Positions 12,301 through 62,924 of a stretch of DNA of 64,000 nt are shown one piece after another. The first letter of the stretch is position 1; every line of letters starts with the position of its first letter. The notes below the pieces were generated by a model. The model had not been told where the DNA came from. It saw only the letters and a list, made by a program, of their open reading frames with translations, and ran no database searches. The stretch spans positions 57,696,984-57,760,983 of the forward strand of contig NC_088300.1 of the NCBI RefSeq assembly GCF_032854445.1, in the 5' to 3' direction. The DNA comes from Liolophura sinensis. Taxonomy: Eukaryota; Mollusca; Polyplacophora; Chitonida; Chitonidae. Made by a program: the position numbers and the translations under genes.

Positions 12301-15300
12301 CAACTGATGTCTTCATATGGCTGCAATTCAAGGGCTCTAAATAAATTACCAATTTTTCCAACAGAGGACCCAGCAGTGCGTGCTAGGCTCACGGAATGTC
12401 TAGAAACAATCCTGAACAAGGCTCAAGAGCCACCCAAATCAAAGAAAGTCCAGCATTCCAATGCTAAAAACGCTGTACTGTTTGAAGCTATCAACCTTAT
12501 CATTCACATGGACAGTGATCCAAACCTTCTAGTCAGAGCATGCAATCAGTTGGGACAGTTCTTACAACACAGAGAAACCAATCTTAGGTGAGTTGTGGCA
12601 GTTACCTTCTGTGCTACACAAACAGTTGTGTGTTGTGGCATAGCTCCGTACTCCTTACAAGCACATGCGTTGCTCCCTATGTTCGCTTAACATCACTGCC
12701 ACTACAAGCAAATTTTGTACAGAAATCTTGAACAACGCTGAGGTCAGAAGGGTCACTGTGATGAGACAGGAAGTGAACTCCCTCTTTGAACCTTTATTTC
12801 TAATAATACTTTATACAGGTGCATTCTCTTTACCCAAAGTATGTACAGCATGATTCTACACAAGACTGTAAACAGTTTTATTTATGAAAGCTGTTGTTAA
12901 ATAGTTACACGGGAGGACAAGCAGTGAGGCTAAGCCTAAACAAGCAGATGGGCTCCAAAGTTTAAACTTGTCTAGTGGTGACAGTGGTGTAAGGCGAGCG
13001 CAGAGAGTGGCACATGTGCTGTAAGGAGTATGGCATAGCTCTTTTCTTACAGGTTTTGGAATTTCAGTAATTATATTATTATGTGAGGCTTTTGCCAGAA
13101 AAAAAAATGTGAGGTCCATATAGCTGTCTGTAACCCCATTGTGCCCGTGCAATAAGTATTTCAAATATTATCTAATTTTGAAAAAAAAATTGTGTGCTGA
13201 TTAATTTTGTGGCTGACAACCTCAAAACCCAGTTTCTTCATCTGTACATTTTTGCGCTTTAACATGGGATATAAATTGTCTAAATTGACATATTTTCATT
13301 GATGTATAAAAGAAATGTCAAAATCCTTGGCACCAGTTCTTCATAGTGCGAGTAAGTATTGAGTTACTGTTAATTGTTATTGTAATTTCTACACTTCAGG
13401 TATTTGGCACTAGAGAGCATGTGCTTATTGGCGACATCGGAATTCTCACATGAAGCTGTGAAAAAACACCAGGAAACAGTTATTACAGCTCTGAAGGTAA
13501 TGTATACTATGTTTTATGTACATGTACAAGTTCTTGCACAGTGCATGTGTAGGAAGTTTTCCTTTTGTATAGACTGGAGGTTTTCCTGTTGGGCTGTTAA
13601 CTAAACAAGAAGGCATAGGACGTTAACTGTCAGTGAGAGAATGGGTAAATGAATGAAATTGACATGGAAAGTTACATGCTTATTATTAATATTTTATCTA
13701 GACAATGCACAGTTGAGCCTTTTGAAACTTATCAATGAAATATAAAGTACTCATTAAGTTATACTCTGTGTGTTTTCTGCAGACGGAGCGTGATGTGAGC
13801 GTTCGTCAGAGAGCAGTGGACTTGCTGTATGCCATGTGTGACCGGACAAATGCTGAGGAGATTGTGGGAGAAATGCTGGAATATTTGGAGTCAGCAGATT
13901 ACTCAATTCGAGAAGAAATGGTAAGTACATGTATACCTGTGTCAGTTTGTGGTGATCACTTTTATAGGAAGCACATTTTATCACTTGTAGCAAGATTGTA
14001 TTAGGCGAAAATTAAAGCAACATATTTTTGATGTTATGCAACCGATCCTTCAAAAAGACAACAACTGAAATTCTTTTTTCATGCTTTTACAGATGCCAAA
14101 TTTTTTTTAATGCCTTTTAATGGTTTTTTTTTTTCACCAATCATTTGAAATGTCACCTTGTTTACAAGTAACAGTCGCTCTTTCAAGAAATAAAATTTTT
14201 TCTCCTGCTGTTGAGTCAAGCCAGCCTTGTAGCCTTTCAGCGGGTATATCATATCCGATATCCGTAGATCGAGATACCTGTTTTTTCCCCCCTATGCATT
14301 TAGATACCAGTAAAATAGCGTTTCCATATTTTTTGGGAGAGGTATACAATAATGAATAGATGACCAATGTCCTTGTGTTTCCATAGGGAGTGGAGATTTC
14401 AGATTAATTACTCATTTTGTGAGATAATTATTGTAAAATGTTCAAGGGAATCTTGTAAACATCACAGCTGTCAGCGTTTTGTGTCGGCAAAATACAGCAT
14501 TCTCTGTGATCCAATTCTTTTCGCCACAGTATGCCTTAAAAACACACTTAATTTCACAAAATTGAATTTGTGAGAATTGTGTGGATCTGGTTATAACCGG
14601 CATGAAATGTTTACAGACACTGACAAAACATGGACACAGGCCTATACCTCCAAGGACAAGCCCCTCAAACTATAGCTGAGCTTCTGCCTGTAGTCCAGTT
14701 ACGTAGATGCCTCAGTTTATTATTTTTGGTTTAAATTCATTTAGACATGGACTGGTATGATCACGGTGACAGATTAAGACGTTACTACATCATAACTCCT
14801 GTTATAACATGATCAAAACAGAGATTTTCATTTTAAACCTACATTATCAAAGAATCCTCTACATAGCTCCTTTGATACTTGCATCCACCACTGTGTTAAT
14901 CCCATTGCACACCTATCAGAGGCCCTCACATGAGCTCCTTCTGTTGGCATGGGGAAAATATCTTTTTTGGGAGATCCCAAAATTTAAAAAAAAACGGTTA
15001 GCTAGGTGTGGGGGTAGCTTTTCTCTGTCAAAACTGTATGGATGGGAGTATGTAGCAGGGAATGTATTGGTATAATTTCCTGAACTGTCATTGATGTCAC
15101 CAGGGCCAGATGCTTGGGTGGGTACAAACTGTATCTGCTTACTGATACATTGTTGTGAAGTGGAAACAATTGTAGTGACAATAGAAAGGGCATTGTAGAT
15201 GCAGGAAAGTCCATATACAAAGGCAAAGCTGATATGTTCCATCCTTTACCCTTCATGCAACATAACAGAATTTTGGTCTCCTCTTCCCCATTTCATTCTT

Positions 15301-18300
15301 CATGTGAATGAAGAATCCCCTAAATCTGACAAAGTTTAATTAAAATTAGGAAATTTGGGAAAATGGAAATTTATCAGTATAGACTTTATTTTTCTAGATC
15401 ATGCGGTTCCACTTGACTTCATCTAAAGAATCAGCTGTACAGGAGTTTGGTTATATTTTCACATGCTCTTGACTTAAATTGTGCTGTAGTGCTCATACAC
15501 ATGTTTAACAAGTGGTTAGTCATTAGTTTTATTATAAAGATCAAAGAATATTTTGAGAATTGCCAAATATTGAGTGACATAATTGACTACTGCATTCTGA
15601 TGAATGTTGAGGAACTTTAACTGTGATCAACCATTTGAACAGGATTCTACAATTATTCTTTCTGTTTTCTGATGGAAAATAAAAACAACCTACCTACTAA
15701 ACAATATTTTGGTTTTGATCCTACATTCAAGAATTTTTCTGGATTTATTTTCGCCAATGAGGAATTGTGAAGCACTACTAAATAGCATGTGTCTGTTATT
15801 AAGGAACTGATAAATCTTAGATTATGCTGTTACATTACCTGAATAATAATTTATTCGCTGTTGTATTAAAAGGTGTTGAAGGTAGCAATCCTAGCTGAGA
15901 AGTATGCTGTGGACTACACCTGGTATGTGGATGTCATTCTGAACTTGATTCGGATAGCTGGAGACTATGTCAGTGAGGAGGTGAGAACAACCAACTAGTA
16001 CACACCAGAGAGGATTGCCTTGTCTGTGCCAGGTTTATTTATTTGACTGATACATAACCCCACCATATTCTAGAATTTTCACTTACACTATGGTTGTCAG
16101 CTTTCTGGGTGGTGAAATGAGAGGGCCCAGAGTAAACCACCGACCTTTGACATGTTAGTGACAAATTTTCCTACATGTGACGTACAGGTATGCACATTAT
16201 TTTGGGGGAAAGCTAGTGGTAAAAACAAGTGTTAGACAGTTTGAATGTGAGTGTTGTCAACTGTTCGTTTTTCTGTAGCCAAGGCTCTACAATTAAGTGG
16301 CAAATCTGCCAGTATGAGGGTAACCAAATCTCAGTGAATTGTATATGCGTCATAGTACATATGAGTACATATAACTGTTCAGTTTAGGGGAGTAATGTAA
16401 TGCCTTGGTTTTTCTTAATTTTAACATGTATGTAGTATATGAACTAAATTAAGTAGTTTTTCTGAATAGTCAAAGGCTAGACTCATTAAGCACACTGTAT
16501 TATAATGCCTGTGACCATTGTTGTAAAGTTTAAAGTGGTCACTTTTAATCAAAGTGACTCCCTAAAAGTATGTATTACTGCCCCCTTTACATACTGATAA
16601 TTGATACTTCCATTCTTGTCAGGTATGGTACAGGGTGATCCAGATTGTCATCAACCGAGACGATGTCCAGGGTTATGCTGCCAAGACTGTGTTTGAGGTT
16701 TGTTACCCAGGAACTTGTAACACCAAGCCTTAAGGAAACAAAGTATTACAGAAACTTTTCACTGTTCAGTAATTCTCCTTTCTTCCTTTGTGCTTTCTTA
16801 TTAATGCATTAGGAGTTCACCTCACCCCACCAAAAAAAAAACCTCTTTCTCATTACAAGATGATTACATCTACAACTGCAACACATTTCCAATAAACTTC
16901 ATTTATACATGGCATGTATGATTGTGTATGGTATATTAGTTTATGATACAGTATCATTTTTATTTTGTACCTTGCCTCCAGGCTCTTCAAGCTCCAGCCT
17001 GTCATGAGAACATGGTGAAAGTGGGCGGGTACATCTTGGGGGAGTTTGGTAACCTCATAGCAGGAGACCCCAGGTCAAGGTGAGCTGTCAAGCTAAGGAG
17101 ATGTATTCTTACTTTAAAGTCCCAAAAATGTGTTTATATATTATAGTCCACAAGAGTTGGGTTATTGCTGGACAGAGTGTACTTGGCAGGTTTAATCCCA
17201 GTCTGGGACGAGGGATGCATTGAACTCTCTCCAGGCTCCAGCCTAGGGTGCAGTAAGCAAATGCACTAGTGTGACTGTTCAATAAGTAATAAGTTTATGT
17301 TGGCTGATCATCTTTTTTTATCTTGTTGTCAGCACTGTTTACATCATCCATTCTATCTTGCAGCCCAGCAGTGCAGTTTCAGCTTCTGAACTCCAAGTTT
17401 CACCTGTGTGGACCATCAACTAGAGGCCAACTCTTGTCAACCTATATTAAGTTTATCAATCTTTTCCCAGAGATCAAACAACAAATACAGGAAGTAAGTT
17501 ATCCTTTTTGCCCATCAAGTTGAGCACATTCATCTTTATTTGTTCAATATGCTCCAGTGGTTTGAGATATTATGGCTTAGATAGATCCACTGAAATACAA
17601 GCAGAATTTGGGGCAGTTTATTTATTTGTATGTAAATAGCATACAGTTTCAGTCTTTGTTTTTCCGAAAAATGTAAATGATAACGTTTAGTCAATAATAT
17701 CTTGACGTCCTGGTCTTTTTGTCAGTAGCAGAAACTATTACATACTAGCATCTACTGCAATCATTTTTGACCCTGGTAGCTAGACCTGCAGGTCGTAAGG
17801 TCACATTGTGCATCCATCGAGTTCGCCTTCTTGTCATGAAGCTAACCCTGTCTATGGTGTCTGCTTACAGCAAGTGTTCCGCAGTGACAACCAGCTGAGG
17901 AACTCTGATGTGGAGTTACAGCAGAGAGCTATAGAGTATCTCCAACTCAGTACTGTGGCCTCAGCAGATGTCCTGGTAAGCTGTGTGTGACCATTAGGAA
18001 CAGAAACTGCCTGTTAATGTGCCTACAGCACAGTTCAATTTGTCATGTAGACTAGTAGTAGCTCATAATAGCATGACAAGCTAACTTATGGATAAACAAA
18101 TTGATCCAATTTCTCCACATATCTATAAGTGGGTTTTGTCTCGTTATTGTGATTTGCATTTGACATTTAATTGTCACTTAAAAAGGCCATTGAGATGATG
18201 TGGGTGGTTGGTAATTGAAATGTATAATTGTGATTTTACTTTAGATAAACACCTTAGTAAAATCAGAACAGTTTTGTTGAGAGGAAAAGATTTTGCCCAC

Positions 18301-21300
18301 CTTTCTGAGATTCTTGCAGTTTCAAGTTTCGTAATTGAACTTGTTAACAATTCACATGTTAACAAGTTCAATTTTAACACTGATAACAATTACAGGCGAC
18401 TGTCCTAGAAGAAATGCCCCCATTCCCTGAACGAGAATCCTCGATCCTGGCCAAACTGAAGAAGAAAAAACCAACAGGAGTAACAGAGAATGTGGAGCCT
18501 AAAGAGCACCGGATGCCAGCGACTCAGATCAACAATTCTGTGGATCAAACCACGCCCACCAGCATTCCTCCAGCTGTCAGTATTGGAGACAAGGTCAGTC
18601 TCTCTGCAGTTCAGCATACATTCATAACTGATGCTTCAGAAAAGCTTTTCTGATTCTTTTGTGATTCCATCCACATAATTCCAACAGTTTTGATAGGGGA
18701 GATAGGATCGGCAGACATGGATTACTTGAGTAAATTCAGTATAGAATTGACACTTCTAACCAAACATTTTTAGATTTCTGTGAGATTGTTTGAATCCAGC
18801 TTGCATTTGCTTGACCGTGACGTTATGTCTGCATGTTTATACATGTAAGTCTCCAGTGAGATGTTCTACCAATAAAACTGACTGCCATCACATAAACCAG
18901 TCCACAGCGTGGCATAATGTATTAGTCAAACAGACTTTGCCTGTAAACGTGACTGCCATCACATAAACCAGTCCACAGCATGGCATAATGTATTAGTCAA
19001 ACTGACTCTGCCTGTAAATGTGACTGCCATCACAATAAACCAGTCCAAAACATGGCATAATGTATTAGTCAAACTGACTCTGCCTGTAAATGTGACTGCC
19101 ATCACATAAACCAGTCCAAAACATGGCATAATGTATTAGTCAAACTGACTCTGCCTGTAAATGTGACTGCCATCACATAAACCAGTCTGCAGTATGGCAT
19201 AATGTATTAGTTAAACAGACTCTGCCTGTAAGTATGATTTAATTAATTGGTGTTTTATGTCATACTCCAGGATATTTCACTTATACGACAGCAGGCAGCA
19301 TTATGTATTAGATAGATTAAAAACTGACAGCAAACAATGCATGTGTTGCAGCCTGTGTCCTCGCCTAGCAGCAGTGGATCTGCTGACCTGCTGGGACTCG
19401 GGTCACCACCCCAAACAGCGGCACCCTCAGGGGGTGCGGCTAGCGGACTGTTGGTGGATGTGTTTGAGGGTCTAGCAGGTGGGGGTGGCAGTGGTGGCAG
19501 TGCAGCAGCCAGTAACTCAGTACCTGTGGAATCAAATGGTCTTAATGTCACATCAGACGACAACTTTAGCAGGTGAGAGCTGGTAGCCTCTAGTACATTC
19601 GTGTCCATGCTTAAGCAGTCAAATTCTCCTGTGTTTTTGGTCTGATCCAATGCATGGGGGATATTCTTCAGTAATAATCTTTACTATAGTAGGGGCTGAA
19701 GACTGAAGATATTATTTGCCAAAATTCAACTTTATTTGAATGTGCCTGACTCAAAATCTGATGTTATGAGTGCCGGACATCCATTGATCATTTTTTGCCA
19801 TGGGGTGGTATATAGAATATATAAAAATAATTAAACAGGATTAGAGAAATATTCTAAATTACGTTTTTGGATGACTATTGCAAAATTAATACAGCTATGT
19901 TAAAATATACTGACGTTGCTCTGTGCCATAAAGTGGAACATTTTGCAATGGTATATCACTTTCTCATCTTAAATGACGTAGCTCTGCGATTTAGAAAAGT
20001 AAAGCCTTAGAAGAACTGAACTTTGTGATTGTGTTTCAGAGAAATATATATTTCATTCTTTTCAGATTTGTTTGTAAGAACAATGGTGTTGTGTTTGAGA
20101 ATGACCTGCTGCAGATAGGAATCAAGTCTGAATACCTACAGAATCTGGCCAGGATAGGGGTTTTCTTTGGCAACAAGACCTCATTCCAGTTTACAGCCTT
20201 TTCCTGTGATTTGTCATTACCAGGAAAACTCTGTAACAGTATCCTTGTGAACGATATGTATTACATGTAACGGTTGAATAAATAAATACATAAATAATTA
20301 AATAAAGAAGCATTCTTGAAGTCTACATGCTCAGTACTGATTTGAGCAGCTAGAATAATAGCTATGTCCTAAGCAGAACCAAAAACAAGGCATAATTTTG
20401 TGGATAACTTTAAACCTAACATGATCTGTAACTTATGGGTAAGCCCATAACAAGTTTTGGATACACTGAGTTGATAGGGGGGGAAATGTGTGGAAAACTC
20501 TTGAGATGGACTGACAGTGAGGTGTCTTTCTTCATCCCCCACCCCCAGTCCCTTTTCAGGTAGGGGACTGATAACAAAGCATATTTGGAGGTGGAAGATC
20601 TAGGCAATCTCTTTCAGACTCTCTCTTCTATCCTTCATCCATATATCTCGCATCTTTATTTAATTGAAATGAGATGTTTTTCACACAGGCTGAAAATGCC
20701 ATTTAAATGAGAATGAAGAAGGCTTGTCAACTAAGATAATTGCAACATGTTACTAATTGCAGTACATGTATTAGTTTTTGCACATGGTGTGGTTAGTCCT
20801 CCTTAATGGTTAAAAGGTGTAATCTGTCATCCCAAGCCTGTGGACACTGTTATTGAAGGAGGAGCTCAAGTTCAACAACTCATCAATATAGAGTGTACAG
20901 AGGTCTTTGAAGAGCAACCACTGCTTAATGTGAAATTCTTGTAAGTAATCATTTTGTGTGGGGTGATGTTGCTCAAGTATTTATACCCAAGGTGTGTAGT
21001 TAGTAGCCTGCTGTGCCCGGTCTCATCCTCTCAGTGGCTGTTTTGGTCTGCAGTAAATTTGTTGTAAATTTATAAATCTGGCTTAGAAGAGATTACCTTG
21101 TCTTAGGACTTCATAGATACCAAAATTCCTCAACCTTTTCGCATATGAAAAAGCAACTTTCAGTGCAATTTAGACACATTTTCAATTGATTTTGGAGAAA
21201 AAACTACATTGGTTGGATTGGCCAGTTCAGGGCTTTACAGAAAAATATATTGCTATCAGCCAACACAGAATGGGCTTTCAGAATATGCTTGAATAAAAAC

Positions 21301-24300
21301 TTTGCGAACATGCTAAAAGGTTTAAGAATTACAGTATGTGCTAAAAAAGAATAAACCAGTTCTAAGATGACAGAAATGGTCTTGATATTGTGTTGAATTA
21401 GTATATATACACACATGTATTGAACAATTGAAGATCTCATTTTCTTATCACTTCTTCAGATAGTTCTATCACTTTTAATTATATTTCCATTGTTTGGTTT
21501 CAGATATAGTGGAGCCCAACAAAAAATTTCTGTAAAACTTCCCTGTCTAATCAACAAATTTATTGAGCCAATTGAGATGAATGAGAATCAGTTCTTCTCA
21601 CGATGGAAAGCTTTAAGTGTGTAAGTATCTAAAAAGTTCAGCTATTACTATTAAACACCATTAAATGTCTCTTGTATTAAAGATAAGTAGATTATCAGTT
21701 GAACTAAGGATTTTTCTGCAGTTATAATCCGTTTCAGATCATACCAAGTAATGATACTCTTTTCTATAGTAATTATTCTCCAGGTAAAGATTAAAGGCTA
21801 AAACACACCCATGAATAATTTTATTGCAAAAAACCTTTCTGACATATCCATTGTTCATTCATATGATTTGCTTCACTTTGTATATATCTGAAAAACCATT
21901 CGACCAGAATTGTAGTTTTATTGGCCTCAAAAAAACAAAAAAACAGATGCAATTAGTCAAGACAAAGTTGTAGAAAATCAAGTCGTTGATAACTTCAAAT
22001 TTTGTGCCTTGAAATATTATCATGTCAAAAGTTCCCTTTATGCTTTAAGACGTTTTGTTGGAATGTTTTTTATCTCCTTCCACAAATCTTGGAGTCCAGC
22101 ATCCTTTACAAGTGTGATCTTGTATTGTTATAATCTGGACTCTTTTTTTTTTTTCGCTCTGTTTAACAGTCCAGCTCAAGAATGTCAGAAAATCTTCAAG
22201 GCTAAATTTGGAATGGAAACTGAACAGAGCAAAGCTAAAGTAAGTTGACTTTGTAATTGATTGTAAAAATATGTTAAGCTGCTTGTACAAAGGGTTTGTC
22301 TGGTGATAGTGATATTTTGAAGTTACAATTGCGATCTTAGGTAAAGTGTACTAGTGAATCACTATTTCTCATGTTCATTTTCAAAAGAGTTATACACACA
22401 GTATATGTACACACACCTAATGACCCTTTGTACCCATATGACTGAAACATTGTTAAATACAATGTTAAAACCTCATTCATTTGTTTATTCAAAAGAGTTC
22501 TACATCATAATGATTGAGCAACTAATAACAATGAGTTAGGGAAAAATTTTCAACAACTTTTTGAGACAATTAAACTGCATGTCTTTGCAAATTGTGTGGA
22601 AAATTACCATGTATTAGTCAACTTATGGGAAGTAAATATTTACAACAGGGTCTTGCAAATTTTAATTTTGAACTGCAAGTTATGATGATCGTAGCTTACA
22701 GTCCCTTCAATCAAAAGGGTTTCCATTGTAAGTCAGACCAGCCTACTTGTACGATTTTGGCGTATTTTGTACTCCAAACATGTAGAAAATATGACCATAC
22801 GCCAAAGAAGTATAAAATACTCTTAGACGCCATGCACGGAAGAAATTATGATCCAAAGTCTGCTTTCGTTTTTTATTTTTATACAAGTCCATTTTTAGTA
22901 TCAGATCCATTATTTTAGTATTCACATTACAGCGATTACAGCCCAAAAAATCATAAAAAAAAAAAAAGGTTGATCACAGAAAATAAATACAACATATCAA
23001 AGATTGTATACCAGCTAAACATTTTTTTCCTCATAATGACCCAAACCAACGCACCAAACATGTCTTTTGTTCCCCCCTGGGGCACCTTAACCTTTTTTGG
23101 AAATTCCTGACATCTGTATTTTAGCCATAGTGACACAGCTAAAGGTTACCGTAATTAAAACTTTTGTGCATTGGTCTTTTTATTTGAAGTAATTTTTAGA
23201 AGGGTTAAAAATATATGCCTGAGTGTTTATATAAAACATAAGTGATTGTACACATTACATTCACTAGGGGTAGGCATGTGTGGGTTATAATTGTGATCAT
23301 AATGATTTACAATCAAGTTATGTTTATGATCCCTTCATGCAAGTGACCCAAGTCCTATAACCGTAAGAAATAATCTGTTTACCCAGAGACTTTAAGCCCT
23401 TTCACTACTGAATTTCTAATGAAGTATCCGTTTATTTTCCCCCTTCTGAGCAGATTCTAGGATTCGGAATGAGTGCATTGGAAGGGATTGATCCCAACCC
23501 CAACAACTTTGTGTCAGCTGGAATTCTTCATATGCGCAATCAACAAGTGGGCTGTCTCTTGAGATTGGAGCCAAATATCCCTGCTCAGGTACCTGTCAGA
23601 ATACAATCTGTTGCTCTGTACAAGCCTGAGTACCATCAGATTAGTGACATTTTCTTGAGTATGGCTTGTGACACCAACCAAATGAATAAATGAACATGTT
23701 TATTGGCTGGAGACTGCTTGCCTTGAACCATTTTATGCTACACGTGGTTTACAAGTTTCCCCTGTTTCTTCCACCCTTCAGCATGATACTTCAGTACTAG
23801 AACTGGAGATCGTCATTGGTACTGTCCTTTTACATTGCAACACAAGTGTGATATGGAAGTGAGCTTAGCTGTTTACGATAATTTGGAAAGATTGCCAGTC
23901 AGCCTGATCAGAAGAGTTCTGCATTTTCCTGTCATGATTTGTTTATCAGTGCCAGCAAGACCAGCCTTTCCAAATCAATGTAATGCCTTGAGCAAAGTGA
24001 ATTAGTGGCGAAGAAAATGTTGAAGGATGTTGCCTTAAGGGTGACATCATTTCAGTATAATATGTATAAATTGGGCCGAAGTTGTTCATTCCGCATAGAA
24101 TGATTTTCCAACAGGTTGAAAGAGAACTGCATGACTCACTGATTTTTTGCAAAATTAAAACAGAAATAGATCTATTATATAAGAGCTGGCCTTAATTGCA
24201 TCAGTGGTGTTCAAATTCAAATATGCATCCCATTGATTCTCTTATTACTACATGTATGGGGGTCTCCGTGGCTTAGTTGGTTAGCGCGCTTGCGCAGCGT

Positions 24301-24624
24301 AATGACCCAGAAACCTCTCATCAATGCGGTCGCTATGAGTTCAAGTCCAGCTCATGCTGGCTTCCTCTCTGTGCGTATGTGGGAAGGCCTGTCCGCAACC
24401 TGCGAATGGTGATGGTTTTTAATGCTGGCTGCCGTGGTATAAGTGAAATATTCTTGAGTATGACATAAAACACCAATCAAACAAATAAATAAATAAATAC
24501 TACAAGTATGTGTTCCACATTTGACCAAATTTTCTTAATTCTGCAGATGTACAGACTTACGATACGAACCAACAAGGAAGACCTGTCTAGGATTCTGTGT
24601 GAATTACTGGCCACTCAGTTCTGA
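3312..24624 (+). CDS. AP2A: AP-2 complex subunit alpha (alpha-adaptin), 23 coding exons
   Basis: Large subunit of the heterotetrameric AP-2 adaptor, which links PIP2-rich plasma membrane, cargo and clathrin during endocytosis. Coding exons: 3312-3375, 8504-8572, 8783-8925, 9244-9437, 10037-10166, 10839-10940, 11462-11570, 12365-12587, 13400-13496, 13783-13920, 15873-15980, 16623-16697, 16982-17079, 17364-17493, 17871-17975, 18396-18593, 19352-19572, 20066-20238, 20817-20940, 21504-21620, 22170-22239, 23454-23588, 24547-24624. Every junction is GT-AG and the phases add up to 2901 nt, or 966 aa (human paralogues are about 940-977). The start [20 protein letters not shown] is the family N terminus. 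Residues 1 to about 620 are the helical trunk, with the KKKY basic patch near residue 54. Residues 621-734 are the hinge and 735-966 the ear. The protein follows vertebrate alpha-adaptin end to end as I remember it. The exon 14/15 join gives one extra residue (IQEQVF against IQDVL). The only uncertain junction is exon 18/19, where 20238 to 20817 is the pair that keeps the frame. Confidence 0.97.
3688..3960 (+). mobile_element. SINE family A, full length, with target-site duplication
   Basis: tRNA-derived head with a polymerase III A box (TGGCTCAGTCGG, 3700-3711) and B box (GTTCAAGTCC near 3769-3778), a conserved middle and an AAATAAATAAA tail. The 9-bp direct repeat ATAATGCTG at 3679-3687 and 3961-3969 is the target-site duplication. 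A non-autonomous retroposon within an AP-2 alpha intron. Confidence 0.92.
5907..5965 (-). mobile_element. SINE family A, 3' tail fragment
   Basis: Reverse-oriented tail: TTTATTTATTT followed by GGTGTTTTACGCCGTACTCA, the complement of the family A 3' end. Confidence 0.8.
6214..6315. mobile_element. Decayed SINE family A remnant
   Basis: Pieces of the family A middle (GGAGAGGAAGCCAGC, CCTGCGGATGGTC, GGGCTCTGTC) appear in scrambled order and orientation. An old rearranged copy. Confidence 0.5.
7811..7978 (-). mobile_element. SINE family A, 5'-truncated, with target-site duplication
   Basis: A reverse-oriented copy that runs from the tail to the B-box region and lacks the tRNA A-box head, as expected from incomplete reverse transcription. 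ACATTTCCAG (7801-7810 and 7981-7990; up to 12 bp if the preceding AC is counted) flanks it. Confidence 0.9.
10386..10736. repeat. 27-bp minisatellite, about 12 copies
   Basis: Imperfect units of the form CAACAAATCTGTCTTAACCC plus TCATCGT, in the AP-2 alpha intron between 10166 and 10839. Because 27 is a multiple of three and units rarely hold stops, both strands show open frames of nearly 100 codons (a 9-residue NKSVLTLIV repeat on +). These are not genes. Confidence 0.9.
11692..11841 (+). mobile_element. SINE family A, 5'-truncated (first copy in the duplication)
   Basis: Begins at GGCCGTAAGTGGG and ends in AAATAAATAAA. TAAGTTAGAA flanks both sides (11680-11689 and 11841-11850), marking the original insertion. 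Confidence 0.85.
11988..12132 (+). mobile_element. SINE family A, 5'-truncated (second copy in the duplication)
   Basis: Same truncation point and same flanking AAGTTAGAA as the copy at 11692, so it arose by duplication of the block, not by a new insertion. Confidence 0.85.
18333..18373. repeat. Perfect 17-bp inverted repeat beside a 3' splice site
   Basis: AATTGAACTTGTTAACA (18333-18349) and its exact reverse complement (18357-18373) flank a 7-nt loop. The hairpin ends 22 nt before AP-2 alpha exon 16 (18396). A plausible branch site, CTGATAAC, lies between the hairpin and the acceptor. Confidence 0.85.
18881..19233. repeat. 71-bp tandem repeat, five copies
   Basis: Units begin ACTGCCATCACATAAACCAG at 18881, 18952, 19023, 19095 and 19166. 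They are nearly identical, with one 1-bp insertion in the fourth-unit spacing. The array sits inside the AP-2 alpha hinge intron. Confidence 0.95.
19237..19304 (-). mobile_element. SINE family A, 3' tail fragment
   Basis: Reverse-oriented remnant (TTGGTGTTTTATGTCATACTC, then ATTTCACTTATACGACAGCA), directly after the 71-bp array and about 50 bp before AP-2 alpha exon 17. Confidence 0.7.
21121..21340 (+). mobile_element. MITE family M1, copy 1 (AP-2 alpha intron)
   Basis: About 220 bp with imperfect terminal inverted repeats (CCTCAACCTTTTCGCATATG on the left; AAAAGGTTTAAGAATTACAG on the right). The inside is shared with copies at 40879-41093 and 53181-53385 (for example GCAACTTTCAGTGCAATTTA and TTGGTTGGATTGG). 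No coding capacity. Confidence 0.75.
24259..24497 (+). mobile_element. SINE family A, full length, with target-site duplication
   Basis: Complete head, middle and AAATAAATAAA tail in the last AP-2 alpha intron. TACTACATGTATG (24246-24258) and TACTACAAGTATG (24498-24510) are a 13-bp duplication with one mismatch. Confidence 0.92.
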
Positions 24625-28572: not shown

Positions 28573-28649
28573 CTCTTTAAGGGGAGACAATCCATTCAAG
28601 GCCATCTTTGGAAGGGTGGGATATGATGCAGTTCCTCATGCTCATCCTG

Positions 28650-34477: not shown

Positions 34478-34744
34478 CTAACAACACACTGGGGCTGACG
34501 TCTCTATTACAGAAACAGTCGTCCCAGTCTTCTTGCCAATACCTGGAGGGCCATCGATGGAAAAGTTGGCAATGATTTCTTGCTGCAGTTGGTTGATTTT
34601 CGTCAGCTGTGGAAGCAACTTGAAATGTCAATGAGCAGACGGCTGTGGTTGTTTGGGTGGGATTTAGACATGGAGTAGTCCAGCACATCTAGGAGTGATT
34701 GTGTAGGCTTCTCGCCTCCTCCAGCCTTTTTATCCCTTCTCGAT
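34478..34744 (-). CDS. Receptor terminal coding exon, two apparent frame breaks
   Basis: Continues with [15 protein letters not shown], the helix 8-9 loop typical of the family. [17 protein letters not shown] and then [16 protein letters not shown] follow, each in a different frame. One base seems to be missing near 34695-34702 and one near 34618-34622. The third frame ends at TAG 34478-34480 after SAPVCC. No helix-12 (AF-2) motif is visible. Read without frame changes, the chain stops soon after SLHNHS. Confidence 0.8.
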
Positions 34745-36169
34745 CTGAAAATCACAGAAAACAAGCAAATTTATATCCAGTGCTAATGTAATACATTTAT
34801 CCACAGATAAAGCTGGGCCACAAAATGAATCTGCACACAAAATCTGATCTAAACTCGACAAAGTTTAGAGGAGTTATTTCACTCCCAATCATGATGGGTA
34901 GACAGACAGACTGACATAATTAATATCCCTTGCTTTTCAGAAAAAGGTACACTTAACCTAGGCTTAACGCTTCTCATTAACACATTTAATGGCGCATTAA
35001 TCTTGAGAAGGATACATGAAAAGGTACACTGACAACCAATATGTTGACATGAAAAGGTACTCTGACAACCAATATGTTGACATGAAAAGGTACTCTGACA
35101 ACCAATATGTTGACATGAAAGGGTACCCTGACAACCAATCTGCTGACATGAAAAGGTACCCTGACAACCAATCTGCTGACAAGAAGAGGTACCCTGACAC
35201 CAATCTGCTGACATGAAAAGGTACCCTGACAACCAATCTGCTGACAAGAGAAGGTACCCTGACAACCAATCTGTTGACATGAAAAGGTACCCTGACAACC
35301 AATCTGCTGACATGAAAAGGTACCCTGACAACCAATCTGTTGACATGAAAAGGTACCTGAAAACCAATCTGTTGACATGAAAAGGTACCCTGACAACCAA
35401 TTTGTTGACATGAAAAGGTACCCTGACAACCAATCTGCTGACACGAAAAGGTACCCTGACAACCAATCTGTTGACATGAAGAAGTACCCTGACAACCAAT
35501 TTGCTGACATGAAAAGATACCATGACAACCAATCTGTTGACATGAAAAGGTACCTTGCAAGCTTGTAGGCTCCAGATGAATGCAAAACTTCAGCAGAATA
35601 CATAAAGTTGTATAGTCATGAATTTGGTAATTTATGGTAACTAACATGCACACAGACCGATGGAATATCCCCCAATTATTATTGTGCTTTATACACATGC
35701 AAAACAGGTAATTACATGCAGTGCTATTGAGCTACCAACCAATACATGACTGCAATACACACAAGCTGCACCTGTGCATTGTGCTGGCGAGGTAACAAAA
35801 TGATGTTGCCTTGGTAATATTTCAGGTCAACTGAAACTACAGTTGTTTTTACCTGGGTAGGTAAGTTGTATAGCACACAGTATTGACATTTCCAGATCTG
35901 TCAGTTTGCAGGAATTGAGTCTGTCAGCAAAGTCAAACATCATATCCACAAAACCTTCCTTGAGAAAATGCGTCATCCATTCTCTGGTGTACGGCTCGCC
36001 GCTAGGGAACTGAAGATAGCTCTCTCCACCAATAAAAAAGGGAGCAGCAGTCACCTAAGACAAAGCCAAGATTAGGTTAAGGCAGGAAAACTAGAACAGC
36101 ATATTATCAATTCAAGACTTTCAAAACCACTGGCAACTTGCAAAAAAAAAATATATATATATATCTATA

Positions 36170-36208
<39 letters not shown>

Positions 36209-39200
36209 TATGCATGTTATGTTTTTTTTTTGTTTTTTTTTTTTAAATGATATTATTAGTGATTATAAGCCATACTTAGACATTTTTAGCAAAAAATGTA
36301 AAATTACCATCCAAATGTCGTAATATGCTTTTTCAGTCATCAGTTTCCTGTCATCCTCCTCAAGTTTGTTAAAACCTGGTACATCATTACAAAATCCTGC
36401 AGACAAAGTGAACAACATTGTGTGTACATCCATTTATGTTACAGAAGTCCTTCAGTAAGGATACAAAATATGTTTCTTGCCAAAATTATGGACAAATTTA
36501 CATATGATGCTGTTTATTAAATATAAAAATTTCAAAGCCAGAGAACAGATGCTTCTGAAAGCTCAGATCAACATGCTGCATGTAAATTTGCAGACAGGGT
36601 AATAAGGAATCAATTATCAGTTTCTACATAATCAATAATGATATGTCTGACTGAGTTTTCAATGTTCTAGCAAGAACAATATGGAAAGTACAAGTTTCCA
36701 GAAGTGTGTTGTCTGAATACAAAAGGCGCTTTCTATTTCACTCATATTGTATCTTGGGACATAATGATGTATTCCTTCTTAAAAGATGCATTACTTGTGA
36801 AAGAAACCTTGTGTAAATACAGCTCCATCTCCATGTGTTGTAAATGACAACAAACTATAGAACTATGTTCACGTACTCCTCAAGTCCTTCTTTTCTCTGC
36901 AGACACATGTACATACTAAACACTCGAAAATTACAACATATACATTTTCAGTTCCACACACATATTACTAGCAAAAATAGCTCTCCCTTTTCACTTCCCA
37001 CAGGACCGGCCCGGATAGCACAGTTGGTAGAGCGTCCGCTTCGGGACCGGTAGATCCAGGATCAATCCTTGGTCGAGTCACACCTAAGACTTTAAAAGAG
37101 GAAGTTGTAACTTCCTCGCTTGGCGTTCAGCATGAAGGGGATAGTGCAACGACTGGTTGACCCGTATCAGTATAATGACTCGGGCGGGGCGGCTTACTTG
37201 CCTTCGGTAAGTCGTCTCAGTGATGCAGCACTAAATAAAAGAGCGGTGGAAATCCATCCTGCAACAAGGAGGCACATTACACGTGCATGCACCCTAATGA
37301 TTCCTTCGTCGTCATATGACTGAAAAATTGTTGAGTACGACGTTAAACCCCAAGCACTCACTCACTTCCCACAAAAAGGCAGTATGACAGCTGACCAGCT
37401 TACCTATTATTCTGGCATTAATCGGTTCCACTGAGCCAATCAGCTGGTTCCACGTTCTCTCAATACCTGACTGGCTTTTGTCCCCAGGTGGATGTCGATG
37501 TAATCCCTGAAAATATAATCAACATTTATTTTGAAAAGTTTGAGATATATATACATGTAAAAGCAACTAACCTTTCGTCCTTGGCTACAAGGACAAGTGT
37601 ATAAACACCCTAACAGTAATTATCACCAAAATGGCCGGAAATTAGAATTGGTTGCAAGGCTACCAAAGAGCTCTCCTGTATGAGAAACATGAATGCAAAA
37701 CTTTAGCTCAATACATCAAGAATTCAAGTCGTGAATTTGGTAATTTACGGTAATTAGTATGCTCACAGAGCATCAGCAATGGAACATCTCCCTTGTGCCA
37801 TTGTGCTTTATATACATGTTAACCTCCAGGTCAATATATACAATACCTTTTTAAGACACCAACCCTAACATTTTGATTAACTGTGATTCTAATACACAAT
37901 ACACTTATACACAATACACTAAGGAAGGAATTCCATAATTTATGGTATTTAGTATACACACACCCAATCAAAGGAATATCCCCTTCATGCTGTTGTGCCT
38001 CTACATATGAGCAAACCCTGAGCTCAATATACACAGTACTTGAGATACCACACCTAACATTTTGTTTATCATTGATTCCACAACATTATACACCAAGCGA
38101 GGAATTCAGTAATTTACAGTACTTAGTATGTACACATCGAATCAACGAAGGAATACACCCCATGCTATTCTGATCTATTCTGATCAGTACATGGAGTACT
38201 TTTTGAGTTACCATCCCTAACACTTTGTTTAACATTACTTTCTCTATTATTGCAGACGCTCATGATATGACATACATGTAGCTACGTCTGTACTATAAAC
38301 AGGTGAGCTAAAAAATGGACGTAGGATAGAAAGAAAACATGGCCTACATGCTTCAGTGATATTTCTGAATCCTGATAATCACAGACCTGTTCATAATCAT
38401 CACAATTCAGTAGCAGTCAGTCAAGTCTCAGGACTTTCCTTCCTGCCTGACTTGGTTTCATCAGTGAAAGTTCAGAGAAATTTACCTCAATATAAATAAG
38501 ACTGATTGATAGTTTCAATATCATACAGGTGCATACATATACCTCTATTTCTTAAAAATTCAAACTCAATACATTTCACATTTCTTAGAGATGCTGAGAG
38601 TCACATTGTGTTCTTTATCAGCTTAATTTGTACCATAACTACATGTACATGTACTTCTACCACATTTGGAAGAATTCAACCAAACAACTACACCTAGTTT
38701 CAGTGAGTAACAAATGGCAACCAAAGAGTTAAACTGTTATCAGATTTTAAGCACTAATTGCTGAACTTCCACTTATACAAATGCATGTATCAAGCTATGA
38801 ACGTATTATTCTCCATGTGACCAGGGGCCACTTTCACAAAGATGTCGTACTTGTAAGATATCGCACATATAGGACAATGGTACGTTTAATAGTGACATAT
38901 AAAATGTCGTACGACAATTGTACGACAAATAAAAGTCGCACACCGCTTTGTGAAAGTGGCCCCAGTACAGTAAATATATTATACATGTACATGTACATAT
39001 TATTCCTTTAGTACTGCAGCAACTGTTTTGAATTCATGTACACTGTTATAATGCCTTACCTTCAACATTAGTTGAATATGAAAATGTAGGTACAAATTAT
39101 TACCCACCTTTAACATTAGCTGAACAAGGGTACACATTAATCCACACTTGCAGCTTTAGCTCAAGACATATAAACACATATTACTCCACACCTTTAACAT

Positions 39201-42200
39201 TAGCTGAACATGGGTACACATTAATCCACACTTGCAGCTTAGCTCAAGACATATATACACATATTACTCCACACCTTTAACATTAGCTGAACATGGGTAC
39301 ACATTAATCCACACTTGCACCATTTATAAATAAATACTAATACATAAATGTATGTACATATTATTCCCACCTAGGAAAGAGTAGGAAAGAGTTAAATACT
39401 TGGTACCTATGACATCTAGCCACATATATGTGCAGATTATTCCCCAGCTATGACACCTAACCAAATATACGTGCAGATTATTCCCCAGCTATGACACTTA
39501 GCCAAATGTATGTGCAGATTATTCCCCAGCTATGACACTTAGCCAAATATACGTGCAGATTATTCCCCAGCTATGACACCTAACCAAATATACGTGCAGA
39601 TTATTCCCCAGCTATGACACTTAGCCAAATGTATGTGCAGATTATTCCCCAGCTATGACACTTAGCCAAATGTATGTGCAGATTATTCCCCAGCTATGAC
39701 ACTTAGCCAAATGTATGTGCAGATTATTCCCCAGCTATGACACTTAGCCAAATGTATGTGCAGATTATTCCCCAGCTATGACACTTAGCCAAATATACGT
39801 GCAGATTATTCCCCAGCTATGACACCTAGCCAAATATACGTGCAGATTATTCCCCAGCTATGACACTTAGCCAAATATACGTGCAGATTATTCCCCAACT
39901 ATGACACCTAGCCAAATATACGTGCAGATTATTCCCAGCTATGACACTTAGCCAAATGTATGTGCAGATTATTCCCAGCTATGACACTTAGCCAAATATA
40001 TGTGCAGATTATTCCCCAGCTATGACACCTAGCCAAATATATGTGCAGATTATTCCCCAACTATGACACCTAGCCAAATATATGTGCAGATTATTCCCCA
40101 GCTATGACACTTAGCCAAATATATGTGCAGATTATTCCCCAACTAGCCAAAGACGTGTACTTGATGACAATGCTTCCTGTGTGACAGAAACTATTAGAGG
40201 TTGTTCACCCCTGTATTTGTTTTTCTTGCTAATAAAAATAGTAGAGGAAACTGGTGTACTGCACACTAACCACAATGTGTTTCAACGATTACATCTAAAG
40301 GATTGAGTTTAGAGCAGATGCATTTGTTGCTTATTTACTAAAGAATTCCAAGACATTTTCACTGGTACATGTATTACACACAGCATCATATTAAACATGT
40401 ACTGATAAATGTAAAGTACCCTAGTTCTTCTAATTTTCTGGTCTGCTCATTTTAGCCAATATATATGTAATTATAGCAGAAATGTTGGCATGTCGTTTTT
40501 TTTCTCAAAAGGTTAGACCATCTGATGAACAACATGCTCATATCTTTACTTTTCCAAAAGGCTGGTAAAGAAATGTAATATTCTACTTTCAACACTCCTA
40601 ATATTTGCTCCCCAAAATCAGAAGAACTAGGGTACTTAAGCAAGTAGCCAAGGCTGCTGAGTAACTAGAAACCAGGCTTTGTGTGTACAATGATCTTAAT
40701 TAGGATAGGGAGGAGCTCTAATGATTAATGTACAGGTATACATTAACAAAACCTCTCTGTCATCAGTGGAGGACTGATGTTTCACAGCTTCTCATATTAA
40801 ATCATACAACAAACAGAATATAAGGTTATCTACATGTATCTTAGCAACTCATCACATTTTCCGTGTGTGTGTGCCCTTATGCCTCAACCTTTTCGCGTAT
40901 GAAAGAGCAACTTTCAGTGCAATTTATGCACATTTATGATTTGTTTCTGGTGACAAAACTACACTGGTTGGATTGGTCAATTTCAGGGCTACATAAAACA
41001 TATAATATTTACAGTCTACACAGAATAATGCCTTCAGAATATGCTTGAAGCATCCTTGCCAAAACATGCGAAAAGATGGAAGAATTACAGTAATCCATAT
41101 CAGGTTCATGTAATCCAGAAAACATTGGATGAGTATAGCCACTAATGAGGCATCAGAGACCCAAAACCAAAACAGCCATGCCAGCTGTTTGTGTGAATAT
41201 GTCACAGACTTCTCCAAATCCAAATCTTGCACACCAGTCATGAAGAATGACAACACAATACCATAAGATAGTTATTGGTTAATTCCTTATTACATTTAAT
41301 ACTAAGATCAAGTTCATTCTGATCTATGCACCTACTGTCGATCTATGTTATTTGATCACTTTTTCATTGCATATGCTTCAATGACGACTGCGACAATATT
41401 TGAAACATTCTGAGATAACTGTGGGGTGGAGAGAAATAATTTTGCACAGTTTTTGAAGGATAACTTGCACATTAGTGACAAACAAATCATTTTTGGTGTC
41501 ATTTTTATAATAATTGTATGCATAAATTTCACTCAAAAAAATTGCTTTAAACAGAGCTGGAAAAGGTTGAAGATTTACAGTAGTTCATCTCATAGGTATG
41601 TACATGTATCCGTCCTTTTCTCTTTGTTTCCCAGATTTTGAAAGCCTTACAAAGCAAAATAAGCGGCTTTATCACCGAGTTTTAAACAGTCATTTTTAAT
41701 AAATCATGATCGAGCCAAAGATTTTGTACCACCATCTTACAGAGAAAAAAAACTATACGTGTAAAAATCTGGTCACATTTCATTTTCCAAGCAAGAAAGG
41801 TTATAATGCACATGCTAGTATACATGTCTGCTTATGACATACATGTAAAAAGCTAACAGTTTTTTTTCCCACTTTGTTTTCAAACGATGCTACATTTTCA
41901 CTTTTGATCATCTGCACAGCATTCAGTTTATTCGATGAACCCATGCTCCAGGAGGAGATTACCGATTTGCAGTCACAAATGTCCCCATTGGGGAATGGGC
42001 TTCCCAAACTATACACTTTTCAGATATGCATATCTCTGTATACTGTTTGATGAAGTGATGAAACACTGAAATACAAACAGTCAGGGCTTACCTGAGAAAT
42101 ACACATTCTCATCCACTCTTTGTTGTCTCTTAGGGGCTTGTTGTGTTTGTGACATGCCTCAGCCAACTCTGTAAAGTCCTCTCCATTAGTGCCTCATTCT

Positions 42201-45200
42201 TCCCCTGCCCCTCTTTCCCTAGCTCTGCTGGGGACAGGAACAGGTCTTCTGAGGGTGTGGGGATCAAGGAGCTGGATGGAGGTTCAATGTCATCAAACAT
42301 TAAGTCTTTATCATAACACAGGTAGTCCTCTGTTTTTGTGCCGTATGGACACAGGCCTGAGTTGGGATCGGTCATGGGGGTCAGCTTGGCCTTAGCCTCA
42401 GTGGTCCCGCTAACAGTTCCGTGAGGTACGCCAGGCTGATACAGGTTAGGGGGAGGGGAAGTGACTGCGGGTGACGTCATGGGCGGGTACCTGCTATCCA
42501 AGGAGTACTGGTTATGCTGCTCTCCAAACTGCTTACTTGCGTTGGAAGAGTGGAAACTGGAGTGTAGTCTCACAGAGTGCTCGTGGAAATTATCGTCCAT
42601 TCCGAAGGATTGAGTTTCAGTCTTATTGTCACTGAGATAATCAAACGTCTCTGTTGACCCGTCAAAGGGCATATTGCTACAGGGGAACTCCGATTTGGGT
42701 GATATACCTGGTATCTCTGAGTGGGGCATAGAGTTACAGGCATGTCCTGTGGACATGAAATTGGGGTAGGTTGTGTGCGTGCTGGTTGCAGCCATTGAGG
42801 GGGGGATGGATGGACTGACCACGCTGTGATTTGGATAATAATGGGGATTCACAGGGGATGACAAGGGACTATGGGGGGACATGTGGAAGGTGTTGGGCAC
42901 TTGACTGAAAGTGATCGCAGGATTACCGCACCCGAGGTTAGGCAGCTGACCAGGGTTACGCGGATTTGTGCTGCCATCAGAAGGCACTAAAAATGGCTCT
43001 ACTTGAGAGGCTAAGCTGCTCTGCAGAATGTCTGGAGACAAAGCATCAGTTGTCTGTGTCGTGACCACTATGGAACTCTCCAATAAATCTTCATAGTTCT
43101 CTTCACCCTGATTGCCGCTGTGTCGCAAAGCGTCACTCAAAAACCTATCAATGTCCTCCATCTTAGACGGGGGCAGAAACTGGTTGCGTAATAATGTCTC
43201 AAGGGTACTAACCTTGGGGGCTGGTTGCCCTTCCATATCATTGTCCCCAGGTCTTTTTAGGGACGAGTTTGGAGGGTGAAACTGTATGGAGCTTCCGTTC
43301 TGCCCAGGGAAATGCGTGGGTTCTTGGAAAGGCACAATGGGCAGAATCTGACCTACATTTGGTATACTGGACTTTTCCACTTTAACATCACCCAACTTAT
43401 GTTGGCCACTGTGAGTCAATGCAGACTTTATCCTAGAATGTTTATCATATGTATGGCTGGATCTAACTAGTTTTTTACATATACTCTGAAAGTCTACACT
43501 GTTTGGCGAATCGAGACCAGAGTCATGCAGAGCTGCCTTTTTGTCTGTGCTGTCCTGTTGCTGTCCCAGACTACGCATGAACTTCCTGAGTATGTTGGGG
43601 GTCCATGCTACTCCCAGACCCCATCACTTGGTTAAGTAATTCCTTGATCATCTCACTGCTGTAGTGCCAGCGTTTCCCAGAAGAGCTCTGCACTGTAAAG
43701 GTATCACTGGTGGCACTGGTGACGCTGCAAGGTGTTCCACTGTTCCTCATGGGCAGATCCATGGAGCCACAATCTGAGGAGGGTGTTAGTCCTGGCAGGG
43801 GACAGTCCCCGTTTGGCAGGATGGGAAAGATTCTCTCTGCAATCTGCTGACAAGTACTGTCGCTGATGCCACTGTCGGATGAGGACAGGTGCCCCTCGTC
43901 CACATTACCCTGAGGGCCAGCACTCTGAGTTGACCGTGCTGCTTCCAATGCACGCTCCTTGTCAATCTTAGGGATGCGACCCATCTTGACAGCTGAAAGA
44001 CATTAATAGACTTTTCAAACATTTTTTCACTTTGTTACACTAAAAGTAAAAACAATATTATGAAAAACATTTTTTCATTGAAATGTAAGAACTTATTTTA
44101 CACCTTAAACAACATGTTCAGAGTAAACCTCAAATCACGTCACAGGAACAATCCAATGAAGATAAAACCTGGCTTCAATGTTTCCCCATAATTTCAAAGT
44201 GCTACTCCAGTTACCAAGAGAAACTTTGTATGAAGGAATTCTTAAAGAACAGAGCTAACATAAGGGTTAAACAAAATTTAAGACGAATGACACAATTTAA
44301 ACCCCCTATAACTGAATAGTCTTCAAAACAGAATCTTCGACAATTTCCATAAAATATTGGTCTGACTTGATCATATTCCTTTCGTGACATTGAATTAGGT
44401 AGGACATGGAATATGTTAACTGTGCTGGAATGACATCAAGAGCATTTGAAGGCACAGCGTCATTTGTGACTTAACGTTAGCGATGAGTGATGCATTGTGC
44501 TCACGCTCACGCAACGTACAAGAGTGGTTTTAATGCACTGTATTTTGTTTACAATTTCGGAAGGCAATTCAGAAAATATCAGTTTATCATTTCACCTTAC
44601 TTTTAAAACATAAGTTTTGACACTGGAGGAGCTCTCTAAGCGGCTTCTTGACTAGGGTATATACATGTATGTACACACAGTAGATTTGTATCCATTGCAG
44701 GTGGAGTAAGAGATTAAGAGAGCAATAAACAAAACTGGAATATTTTTTTTCATCCAATCCTTACGCATCTATGGCCATTCCTTTTTCAAGACATCGTTTG
44801 TATCTACAATATTTGCAACGATTACGGTTTTGTGGTGTTATTACACACTGGCTGCCAAAGAAGCATTTGTATTTTTCAGCTTTCGTTGTGCTTCGTTTGA
44901 AGAAACCCTGGGAAAAAAACAATGAAATAAATTTATTTTGGTGATACAGTAACCAAACTAAAATATCATTAATGTCATAAGATAACATAAGTCCAGTTTA
45001 TCACCTGAATATCATTAAGGAAGATATGAACACATCTTATACAAAAAAAACATTCAATTGGTTGTGGCATTCCACCGGACTCTTCCCAATTTCCTTCCAC
45101 CATAATGCTGGCTTCTGTCATATACTTGAAATACTGTTGAGTGCAGCATAAAACACCAAACACCAAATAAATAAATAAATAAACAAATAAATAATATTTA

Positions 45201-45764
45201 GTGTATATCTATAAATATTGTATCAATTTGCATTATTTTAACAAGCTTGCATCTTCACTGGCAAAAATGAATCATTTTAGCCTCATTTTCATAATACTTG
45301 AATGCATAAATTCCACTGGAAAAAACTGCTTTAGAGGTTGAAAAGGTGCAAGATTTACAGTGCGCAAAAAATTTATTAATTAGACCAAATAAACTTGGCT
45401 TTAACCATCTTCAGTTACAGCACTGTTCTGTATTGCTTAGCAATAACAGGTTTGCATGACCAGTATTTCAGAGCCACCAGAGTGCAGCTGCAACCTCAGC
45501 CCGAAATAGCCAACAACAAGCCATTGTTCTGCTGGATTGATACAGTCATGTCAAACCCTCCATGTGTAAATTATGTTAATGATTTCAATATAACAGCATA
45601 ATGGATTGAAAGAATAAGATTTAACAATAACATAATTTTGACAAAACCAAGTTTTTTCCAACCTTGCATCCCTCACATGTGGCTACCCCATAATGCACTC
45701 CTGTAGCCTTGTCATTACAGATGCGACACTCTCCAAATGGGAAGGGTATGGCCCCCGCTGGCAT
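34478..45764 (-). CDS. Nuclear receptor, NR1-type, seven coding exons; frame broken as assembled
   Basis: Transcription factor of the nuclear receptor superfamily. Coding exons in transcript order: 45764-45663, 44907-44765, 43992-42092, 37506-37404, 36396-36308, 36054-35853, 34744-34478, all with GT-AG borders; about 935 codons. The first two encode a C4 zinc-finger DNA-binding domain ([15 protein letters not shown] box CEGCKG, then CFFGSQC and [11 protein letters not shown]), followed by GRIPK as in the Rev-erb/E75 C-terminal extension. A hinge of about 630 residues rich in Ser and Pro follows. The last four encode the ligand-binding domain, with signatures [32 protein letters not shown] and DREG. 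Five frame breaks occur: the exon 2/3 join, a 5-G run at 43597-43601, near 42176-42185, near 34695-34702 and near 34618-34622. Subgroup uncertain (NR1D/NR1E-like LBD, unusual fingers). Confidence 0.85.
34745..35852 (-). other. Receptor intron containing a 33-bp minisatellite
   Basis: Separates the last two ligand-binding exons. Half of it is the 33-bp array; the remainder (35560-35852) contains a copy of an interspersed repeat around AATTTGGTAATTTA (35622). Confidence 0.85.
35013..35560. repeat. 33-bp minisatellite, about 17 copies
   Basis: Units TGACATGAAAAGGTACCC plus TGACAACCAATCTGT. A period divisible by three leaves all three - frames open for 205-233 codons (such as a repeated [11 protein letters not shown]) and one + frame with [11 protein letters not shown]. 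It lies wholly within a receptor intron, so I do not call it coding. Confidence 0.95.
35853..36054 (-). CDS. Receptor ligand-binding domain exon 6
   Basis: 202 nt. It encodes [19 protein letters not shown] through [20 protein letters not shown] to CAIQLTYP (helices 5-8). The MxxFaerlNsl.Lt..E pattern resembles Rev-erb and E75/E78. Phase 1 at the end. Confidence 0.9.
36150..36208. repeat. (TA)n microsatellite with flanking poly-T
   Basis: Interrupted TA tract in the short receptor intron between 36054 and 36308; T9 and T10 runs follow it. Confidence 0.9.
36308..36396 (-). CDS. Receptor ligand-binding domain exon 5 (signature)
   Basis: 89 nt. It encodes [20 protein letters not shown], the nuclear-receptor signature around helices 3-5 (F..dvPGF..L...D), then EKAYYDIWM. 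Phase 1 in, phase 0 out. Confidence 0.9.
37003..37361 (+). mobile_element. SINE family B, full length, with perfect target-site duplication
   Basis: Head GACCGGCCCGGATAGCACAG with A box (TAGCACAGTTGG) and B box (GGATCAATCC), ending in ACGTTAAACCCCAAG and CACTCACTCA. A perfect 12-bp duplication TCACTTCCCACA occurs at 36991-37002 and 37362-37373. It is inserted in a receptor intron, 43 bp from the exon at 37404, on the strand opposite to the gene. Confidence 0.95.
37404..37506 (-). CDS. Receptor ligand-binding domain exon 4
   Basis: 103 nt after ATTTTCAG. It encodes [12 protein letters not shown]...[16 protein letters not shown], the helix 1-3 region, and ends in phase 1 before GTAAGC. In frame with both neighbours. 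Confidence 0.8.
37725..38240. repeat. Diverged tandem repeat, three units of about 175-195 bp
   Basis: Each unit has GGTAATTTA.GGTA.TTAGTAT near its start and a shared CTAACA.TTTG segment near its end (starts near 37733, 37930 and 38105). A related single unit lies near 35590-35705 in another intron of the same gene. Confidence 0.7.
38824..38963. mobile_element. 140-bp MITE with perfect 18-bp terminal inverted repeats
   Basis: GGGGCCACTTTCACAAAG (38824-38841) and its exact complement (38946-38963). The interior has a second palindrome around GTACGACAATTGTACGAC. No convincing target-site duplication. Confidence 0.85.
39108..39340. repeat. 83-bp tandem repeat, about three copies
   Basis: Units start CCTTTAACATTAGCTGAAC at 39108, 39191 and 39274. 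Confidence 0.9.
39405..40150. repeat. 41-bp minisatellite, about 18 copies
   Basis: Units AGCTATGACACTTAGCCAAA plus TGTATGTGCAGATTATTCCCC. Variants alternate (ATATACG, GTATGTG, ATATATG), suggesting blockwise amplification. Confidence 0.95.
40879..41093 (+). mobile_element. MITE family M1, copy 2
   Basis: Same orientation as 21121-21340: starts GCCTCAACCTTTTCGCGTAT, ends AAGATGGAAGAATTACAGTA, and shares the interior GCAACTTTCAGTGCAATTTA. Confidence 0.8.
41420..41590. repeat. Interspersed repeat M3, copy 1
   Basis: The segment from ATCATTTTTGGTGTCATTTT to AAAGGTTGAAGATTTACAGT recurs, diverged, at 45260-45362. It shares only its end motif with family M1. Confidence 0.55.
42092..43992 (-). CDS. 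Receptor hinge exon (1.9 kb)
   Basis: One exon runs from [20 protein letters not shown] through a long Ser/Pro/Asn-rich region to the first helix of the ligand-binding domain ([16 protein letters not shown], ending MRMCISQ, phase 0). It contains an LxxLL-like motif (LETLL) and a candidate SUMO site (VKVE). Two frame changes are needed. One base less is needed in the run at 43597-43601, where the first frame otherwise stops at 43571-43573. One base more is needed near 42176-42185, where the second frame otherwise stops at 42130-42132. The 482-codon stretch between has no stop. Confidence 0.85.
43993..44764 (-). other. Receptor intron between finger 2 and hinge exons
   Basis: 772 bp with nothing recognisable beyond AT-rich DNA. 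Confidence 0.8.
44765..44907 (-). CDS. Receptor exon with second zinc finger
   Basis: Begins [15 protein letters not shown] after a TTTCCCAG acceptor. It carries all four Cys of finger 2 (C-FFGSQ-C, then C-KY-C) and ends with KGMAID plus two bases before GTAAGG. The next exon opens with CT before GTC AAG ATG, so the join has one base too many for the expected AVKMGRIPK. This is the first frame anomaly. Confidence 0.9.
45070..45185 (+). mobile_element. SINE family A, 3' fragment
   Basis: CCATAATGCTGGCTTCTGTC to the AAATAAATAAA tail, diverged, in a receptor intron. Confidence 0.75.
45260..45362. repeat. Interspersed repeat M3, copy 2
   Basis: Parallels 41480-41590: ATTTTCATAATA, TGAATGCATAAATT, AACTGCTTTA, then the GGTTGAAAAGG and GATTTACAGT end. 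Confidence 0.55.
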
Positions 45765-62893: not shown

Positions 62894-62924
62894 AACATAC
62901 AGGTACTGTTCATTCTTAGGGTAT

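Follow-up and report, generated by a model that had tools for sequence, protein, structure and literature searches.

The receptor gene and its neighbour

The window (the whole stretch of DNA that was analysed, 64,000 nucleotides) carries a single nuclear receptor gene on its minus strand at 45764-34478, with seven coding exons and an in-frame TAA at 45782, 18 bases upstream of its ATG. The reading of this gene is interrupted by five apparent frame breaks, numbered here from its 5' end. A gene for the AP-2 complex subunit alpha, on the plus strand, was used as the control.

8515..24624 (+): AP-2 complex subunit alpha, control gene; 22 exons with 2820 nt in one unbroken frame; modelled from 8515 onward
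45663..45764 (-): receptor coding exon 1; start codon and first zinc finger of the DNA-binding domain; donor GTTGGA
44765..44907 (-): coding exon 2; second zinc finger, to GMAIDA
42092..43992 (-): coding exon 3; long hinge, preceded by the box that follows the zinc fingers; ~630 residues in total
37404..37506 (-): coding exon 4; start of the ligand-binding domain
36308..36396 (-): coding exon 5; ligand-binding domain
35853..36054 (-): coding exon 6; ligand-binding domain
34478..34744 (-): coding exon 7; end of the ligand-binding domain, in three successive frames; stop at 34480-34478

Exons 1 and 2 together encode a DNA-binding domain that matched PF00105 (zf-C4) with 100.9 bits (cutoff 21.1, E 5.3e-29), covering positions 2-69 of the 70 in the profile, and the zinc-finger cysteines are retained by inspection. 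The ligand-binding domain matched PF00104 with 34 bits (cutoff 23.5) when the reading was carried over breaks 4 and 5 by X, while the piece before break 4 scored 20.5 bits, under that cutoff; the 34-bit query was also longer at its start, where the added residues lie outside the match. Both signatures had been recognized in the initial annotation. With a C4 double zinc finger and a ligand-binding domain, the predicted product is a member of the nuclear receptor superfamily. No Pfam domain was found in the two pieces of exon 3 that were scanned. A second, tandem DNA-binding domain of the 2DBD type was not found either by a CxxC...CxxC pattern scan of the six frames of the window, a scan that is blind to odd spacing and to exons beyond the window. 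Its three matches were the first finger itself at 45728, a plus-strand match at 10756 that contains a stop, and an intronic match at 35763, which by inspection has no receptor features.

Several tandem arrays were observed in and around the receptor gene. One at 46000-46937 (46-bp unit, 20.5 copies) ends ~236 bp upstream of the start codon, one at 39407-40145 (41-bp unit x 18) lies in intron 3, and one at 35014-35554 (33-bp unit x 16.5) lies in intron 6, where it leaves open frames of >200 codons in 3/3 minus-strand frames. Further arrays were found at 62469-62889 (22-bp unit x 19) and 32571-33134 (21/42-bp units). Two copies of a dispersed repeat, at 27235-27578 and 37022-37366, are 98.6% identical over 345 bp, with 4 mismatches and one gapped base. 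A weak tRNA match at 37009-37080 (29.2 bits against a cutoff of 29, E 0.052) extends into the second copy, which is located in intron 4; the arrangement is as in a tRNA-derived SINE, to which this copy may correspond. Dispersed repeats of a further set, with 72-88% similarity within the listed pairs, are found at 3686-3958, 7814-7980, 11692-11846, 11988-12140, 24254-24498, 28635-28804, 45049-45190, 53963-54068 and 62921-63156, one copy being in receptor intron 1.

The AP-2 alpha model contains one stop, the terminal one, and its 939 residues align over their full length, with linker gaps, to the AP-2 alpha chain of the solved structure 6owt (1463.6 bits). The claim that this gene needs no change of frame was thus upheld from 8515 on, over 2820 nt without an internal stop. 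Its exon joins were picked among phase-consistent pairs, such that a break coinciding with a join could hide, whereas one inside an exon could not. Additional control genes were sought among 141 listed open frames, ten of which were scanned against Pfam; 0/10 reached a curated cutoff, and the weak match among them was to DUF2218 (E 0.04).

Five changes of reading frame

The frame changes were located by a scan that finds a path across all three frames of the receptor mRNA, taken as literally spliced, at a cost per switch, with a codon table derived from AP-2 alpha only. At penalties of 8, 10, 12, 15 and 20, exactly five switches were returned, at the points given below.

43991..44765 (-): break 1; exon 2/3 join, with sites AGATGC|GTAAGG and TTTCAG|CTGTCA; switch at 43991
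43573..43626 (-): break 2; stop-codon bracket; best point 43600, at a five-base C/G run
42132..42196 (-): break 3; stop-codon bracket; best point 42186
34691..34744 (-): break 4; stop-codon bracket; codon scan 34736
34605..34630 (-): break 5; stop-codon bracket; best point 34626

At a penalty of 6, two more switches appeared in the receptor (43741 and 43665), and at a penalty of 30 just the first three survived, for which reason breaks 4 and 5 are the weaker ones by codon usage. The first two sites have one base too many and the last three one too few, where 'one base' is the simplest reading of a change that is measurable only modulo three. Both the number of frame changes and their directions agree with what had been proposed from the letters of the sequence. 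The short intervals proposed for them hold as best guesses, although stop codons alone give only the wider brackets for breaks 2-5. With codons of the receptor hinge as the training set, the same scan gave no switch in AP-2 alpha. When AP-2 alpha was given one planted single-base change, kept 300 nt or more from either end, exactly one switch was returned in 100/100 trials, within 60 nt of the planted change in 96.

Read piecewise in the supported frames, the receptor comprises 925 codons, with the terminal stop as its sole stop. All five breaks fit one-base changes, and an evident homopolymer, of five bases, is present at only 1/5. Beyond breaks 1, 4 and 5 homology continues, and beyond break 2 there is a long open frame.

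The initial annotation had described the splice sites as good, and 6/6 receptor introns are GT...AG, the exception being the phase at the exon 2/3 join. There, the canonical sites throw the conserved DAV(K/R)xGR(I/M)PK reading out of frame, and no phase-consistent canonical donor-acceptor pair linking exon 2 to exon 3 was found in the range searched near the join. For the other five receptor introns, the same search returned the modelled pair as the best-scoring phase-consistent one in 5/5 cases. In the shifted frame, a gap-free alignment with DAVRFGRIPKREKQR of Rev-erb alpha runs through the join. Taken literally, canonical splicing yields a protein that ends after 89 codons, in MAIDACQDGSHP, at break 1. 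A literal end at EVHA, after 221 codons, had been given before; this is wrong, as it is reached only if break 1 is forgiven.

Past break 2, exon 3 contains an open frame of 497 codons, which at its own composition would arise by chance with a probability of ~1e-10; no relatives of this 497-residue frame were found when viral contigs were scanned. Break 3 is supported by codon usage, stop codons and a GTAAGC splice donor, and not by homology: nothing matched near it in solved structures, as the piece that starts just past this break aligns only from its residue 33 onward. The three frames of exon 7, in contrast, contribute one after another to a single alignment with the ligand-binding domain of Rev-erb beta, which covers positions 33-225 of a 250-residue query written with X where breaks 4 and 5 lie. 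The codon scan places break 4 ~35 bases away from the earlier placement, and the Rev-erb alignment favours 34702-34695.

Affinity to Rev-erb and the NR1 receptors

Among solved structures, the best relatives of both domains were Rev-erb alpha and beta (NR1D1, NR1D2), whose group also includes insect E75 (NR1D3). The ranking appears clearly in favour of Rev-erb in the ligand-binding domain (3cqv, 77.5 bits, vs 41.7 for LXR-alpha, the best non-Rev-erb match) and narrowly so in the DNA-binding domain (1a6y, 96.6 bits, vs 92.1 for ROR-gamma, the next). We therefore file the gene as a putative NR1 receptor, Rev-erb-like, with NR1D nearest among solved structures only.

By inspection, the receptor has no AF-2-like end past its last aligned helix, as is also the case for Rev-erb. 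A possible alternative last exon was considered (donor after 34543, pyrimidine-rich acceptor at 34311); it yields ...IDGPPGMSKITNDREQVATINDLQNRFGKR, in which an AF-2 helix is again not clear. In helix 11, the receptor carries Q in place of the histidine of Rev-erb beta (NQLQQEII vs NNMHSEEL), which we take to be a haem ligand; the NR1D haem-binding histidine was thus not found at this position of the alignment. Unlike in Rev-erb, exon 3 alone puts ~630 residues between the zinc fingers and the ligand-binding domain, which is a long distance, and the reading is interrupted by the five apparent breaks. If working, the receptor would be an NR1 factor of repressor-like type in which no AF-2 helix is evident.

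From its genes and repeats, the window may come from a lophotrochozoan, perhaps a mollusc. Excerpts of the oyster study of Vogeler et al. 2014 (PMC4070562) describe an expanded NR1 set (23/38 classical receptors) that includes an NR1P group of eleven members. This molluscan group segregates from the common ancestor of NR1C-NR1F, with NR1P1-9 being weakly similar to NR1C-F members. For a snail, several NR1D-type genes are mentioned in an excerpt of PMC4388693.

Explanations for the breaks

We consider it likely that the five small indels are assembly or haplotype-collapse errors that are absent from the functional allele, and that the locus holds an ordinary, probably working NR1 (Rev-erb-like) gene. 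The indels, most simply of one base each, could have been left as residual consensus errors; alternatively, two diverged haplotypes may have been collapsed into a single sequence. Several observations argue for such an artefact: the five switches were recovered with another gene's codon usage, the splice sites are intact except for the exon 2/3 phase, no further nonsense codon is present, receptor homology flanks breaks 1, 4 and 5, and break 2 is followed by a long open frame. A precedent by likeness is offered by the trypanosome Trypanosoma brucei, for which excerpts of PMC8445201 report that allele collapse and nearby allelic variants caused indel errors and ORF truncations, and that read correction repaired >500 genes. 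As in the receptor, indels in such collapsed or uncorrected long-read assemblies disrupt otherwise intact genes. If the breaks are artefacts, reads without the indels and expression of the receptor gene would both be expected.

One point against an artefact is that AP-2 alpha, of near-equal length, is without breaks, and assembly errors would therefore be uneven; another is that an evident homopolymer accompanies just one of the breaks. All five breaks do fall in one of the two genes, as had been emphasized in the initial annotation, but with a one-sided P of 0.03 this clustering is a weak argument. Used as a local error control, the repeat pair at 27235-27578 and 37022-37366 would be expected to contain ~0.6 indels at the receptor rate, which is too few to be decisive. 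The same clustering counts in favour of a receptor that is truly decaying, either as a recent pseudogene or as a segregating null allele with genuine small indels, which we regard as unlikely. Decay would find a setting in the expanded NR1 set of the oyster, in which two receptors have been suggested as possible unitary pseudogenes (excerpts of PMC4070562). Against it stand the 925 codons without a premature stop made by substitution, the presence of every GT and AG, and the retained zinc-finger cysteines. Frame breaks alone were seen as disabling changes in the receptor (0 premature stops, no GT or AG lost), and five disabling indels on their own would require a very recent, indel-biased process; an old pseudogene would be expected to have gained stops, and to have lost splice sites and cysteines, in addition to the indels. 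The one-base fit of all five breaks is only moderate evidence against an old pseudogene. The missing nonsense codons, however, are not strongly informative. Since 2.9% of substitutions in the receptor reading would create a stop, a neutral pseudogene would show none with a probability of 0.49, 0.24 or 0.11 at assumed ratios of 5, 10 or 15 substitutions per indel. Their lack is weak evidence against a pseudogene, as the test has little power.

It is very improbable that the gene makes only the 89-codon DNA-binding-domain protein, competing with full-length receptors. This protein is exactly what literal canonical splicing yields, and receptors with a DNA-binding domain only are known, excerpts of PMC4070562 mentioning two oyster sequences with a single such domain. 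However, its literal end displaces the conserved stretch that follows the zinc fingers, and the ~840 later codons are open and coding-like, partly with receptor homology, which requires that the full protein was still under selection until very recent times. Were the breaks real, a Rev-erb-like receptor would have been reduced very recently to a DNA-binding-domain-only competitor at NR1 sites, its remainder still intact-looking, a scenario to which we give equally little credence. Least probable of all is a bridging of the breaks at the mRNA level (RNA editing, micro-introns or non-canonical splicing) or on the ribosome (frameshifting). No support for this was found, save that a non-canonical splice site is conceivable for break 1 alone, because no canonical pair in range fits. 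Breaks 2-5 are exonic, include changes in either direction and have no common motif visible by inspection, and we know of no precedent for five different frame-bridging events in one gene.

The order in which the initial annotation had placed the explanations, with assembly error as the plain one and decay or a polymorphic allele as alternatives, is retained. An annotation that takes this sequence at face value would score the receptor as lost or as DNA-binding-only. Receptor counts in invertebrate genomes feed arguments on endocrine evolution, and the present case shows that the loss of a receptor should not be scored without reads.
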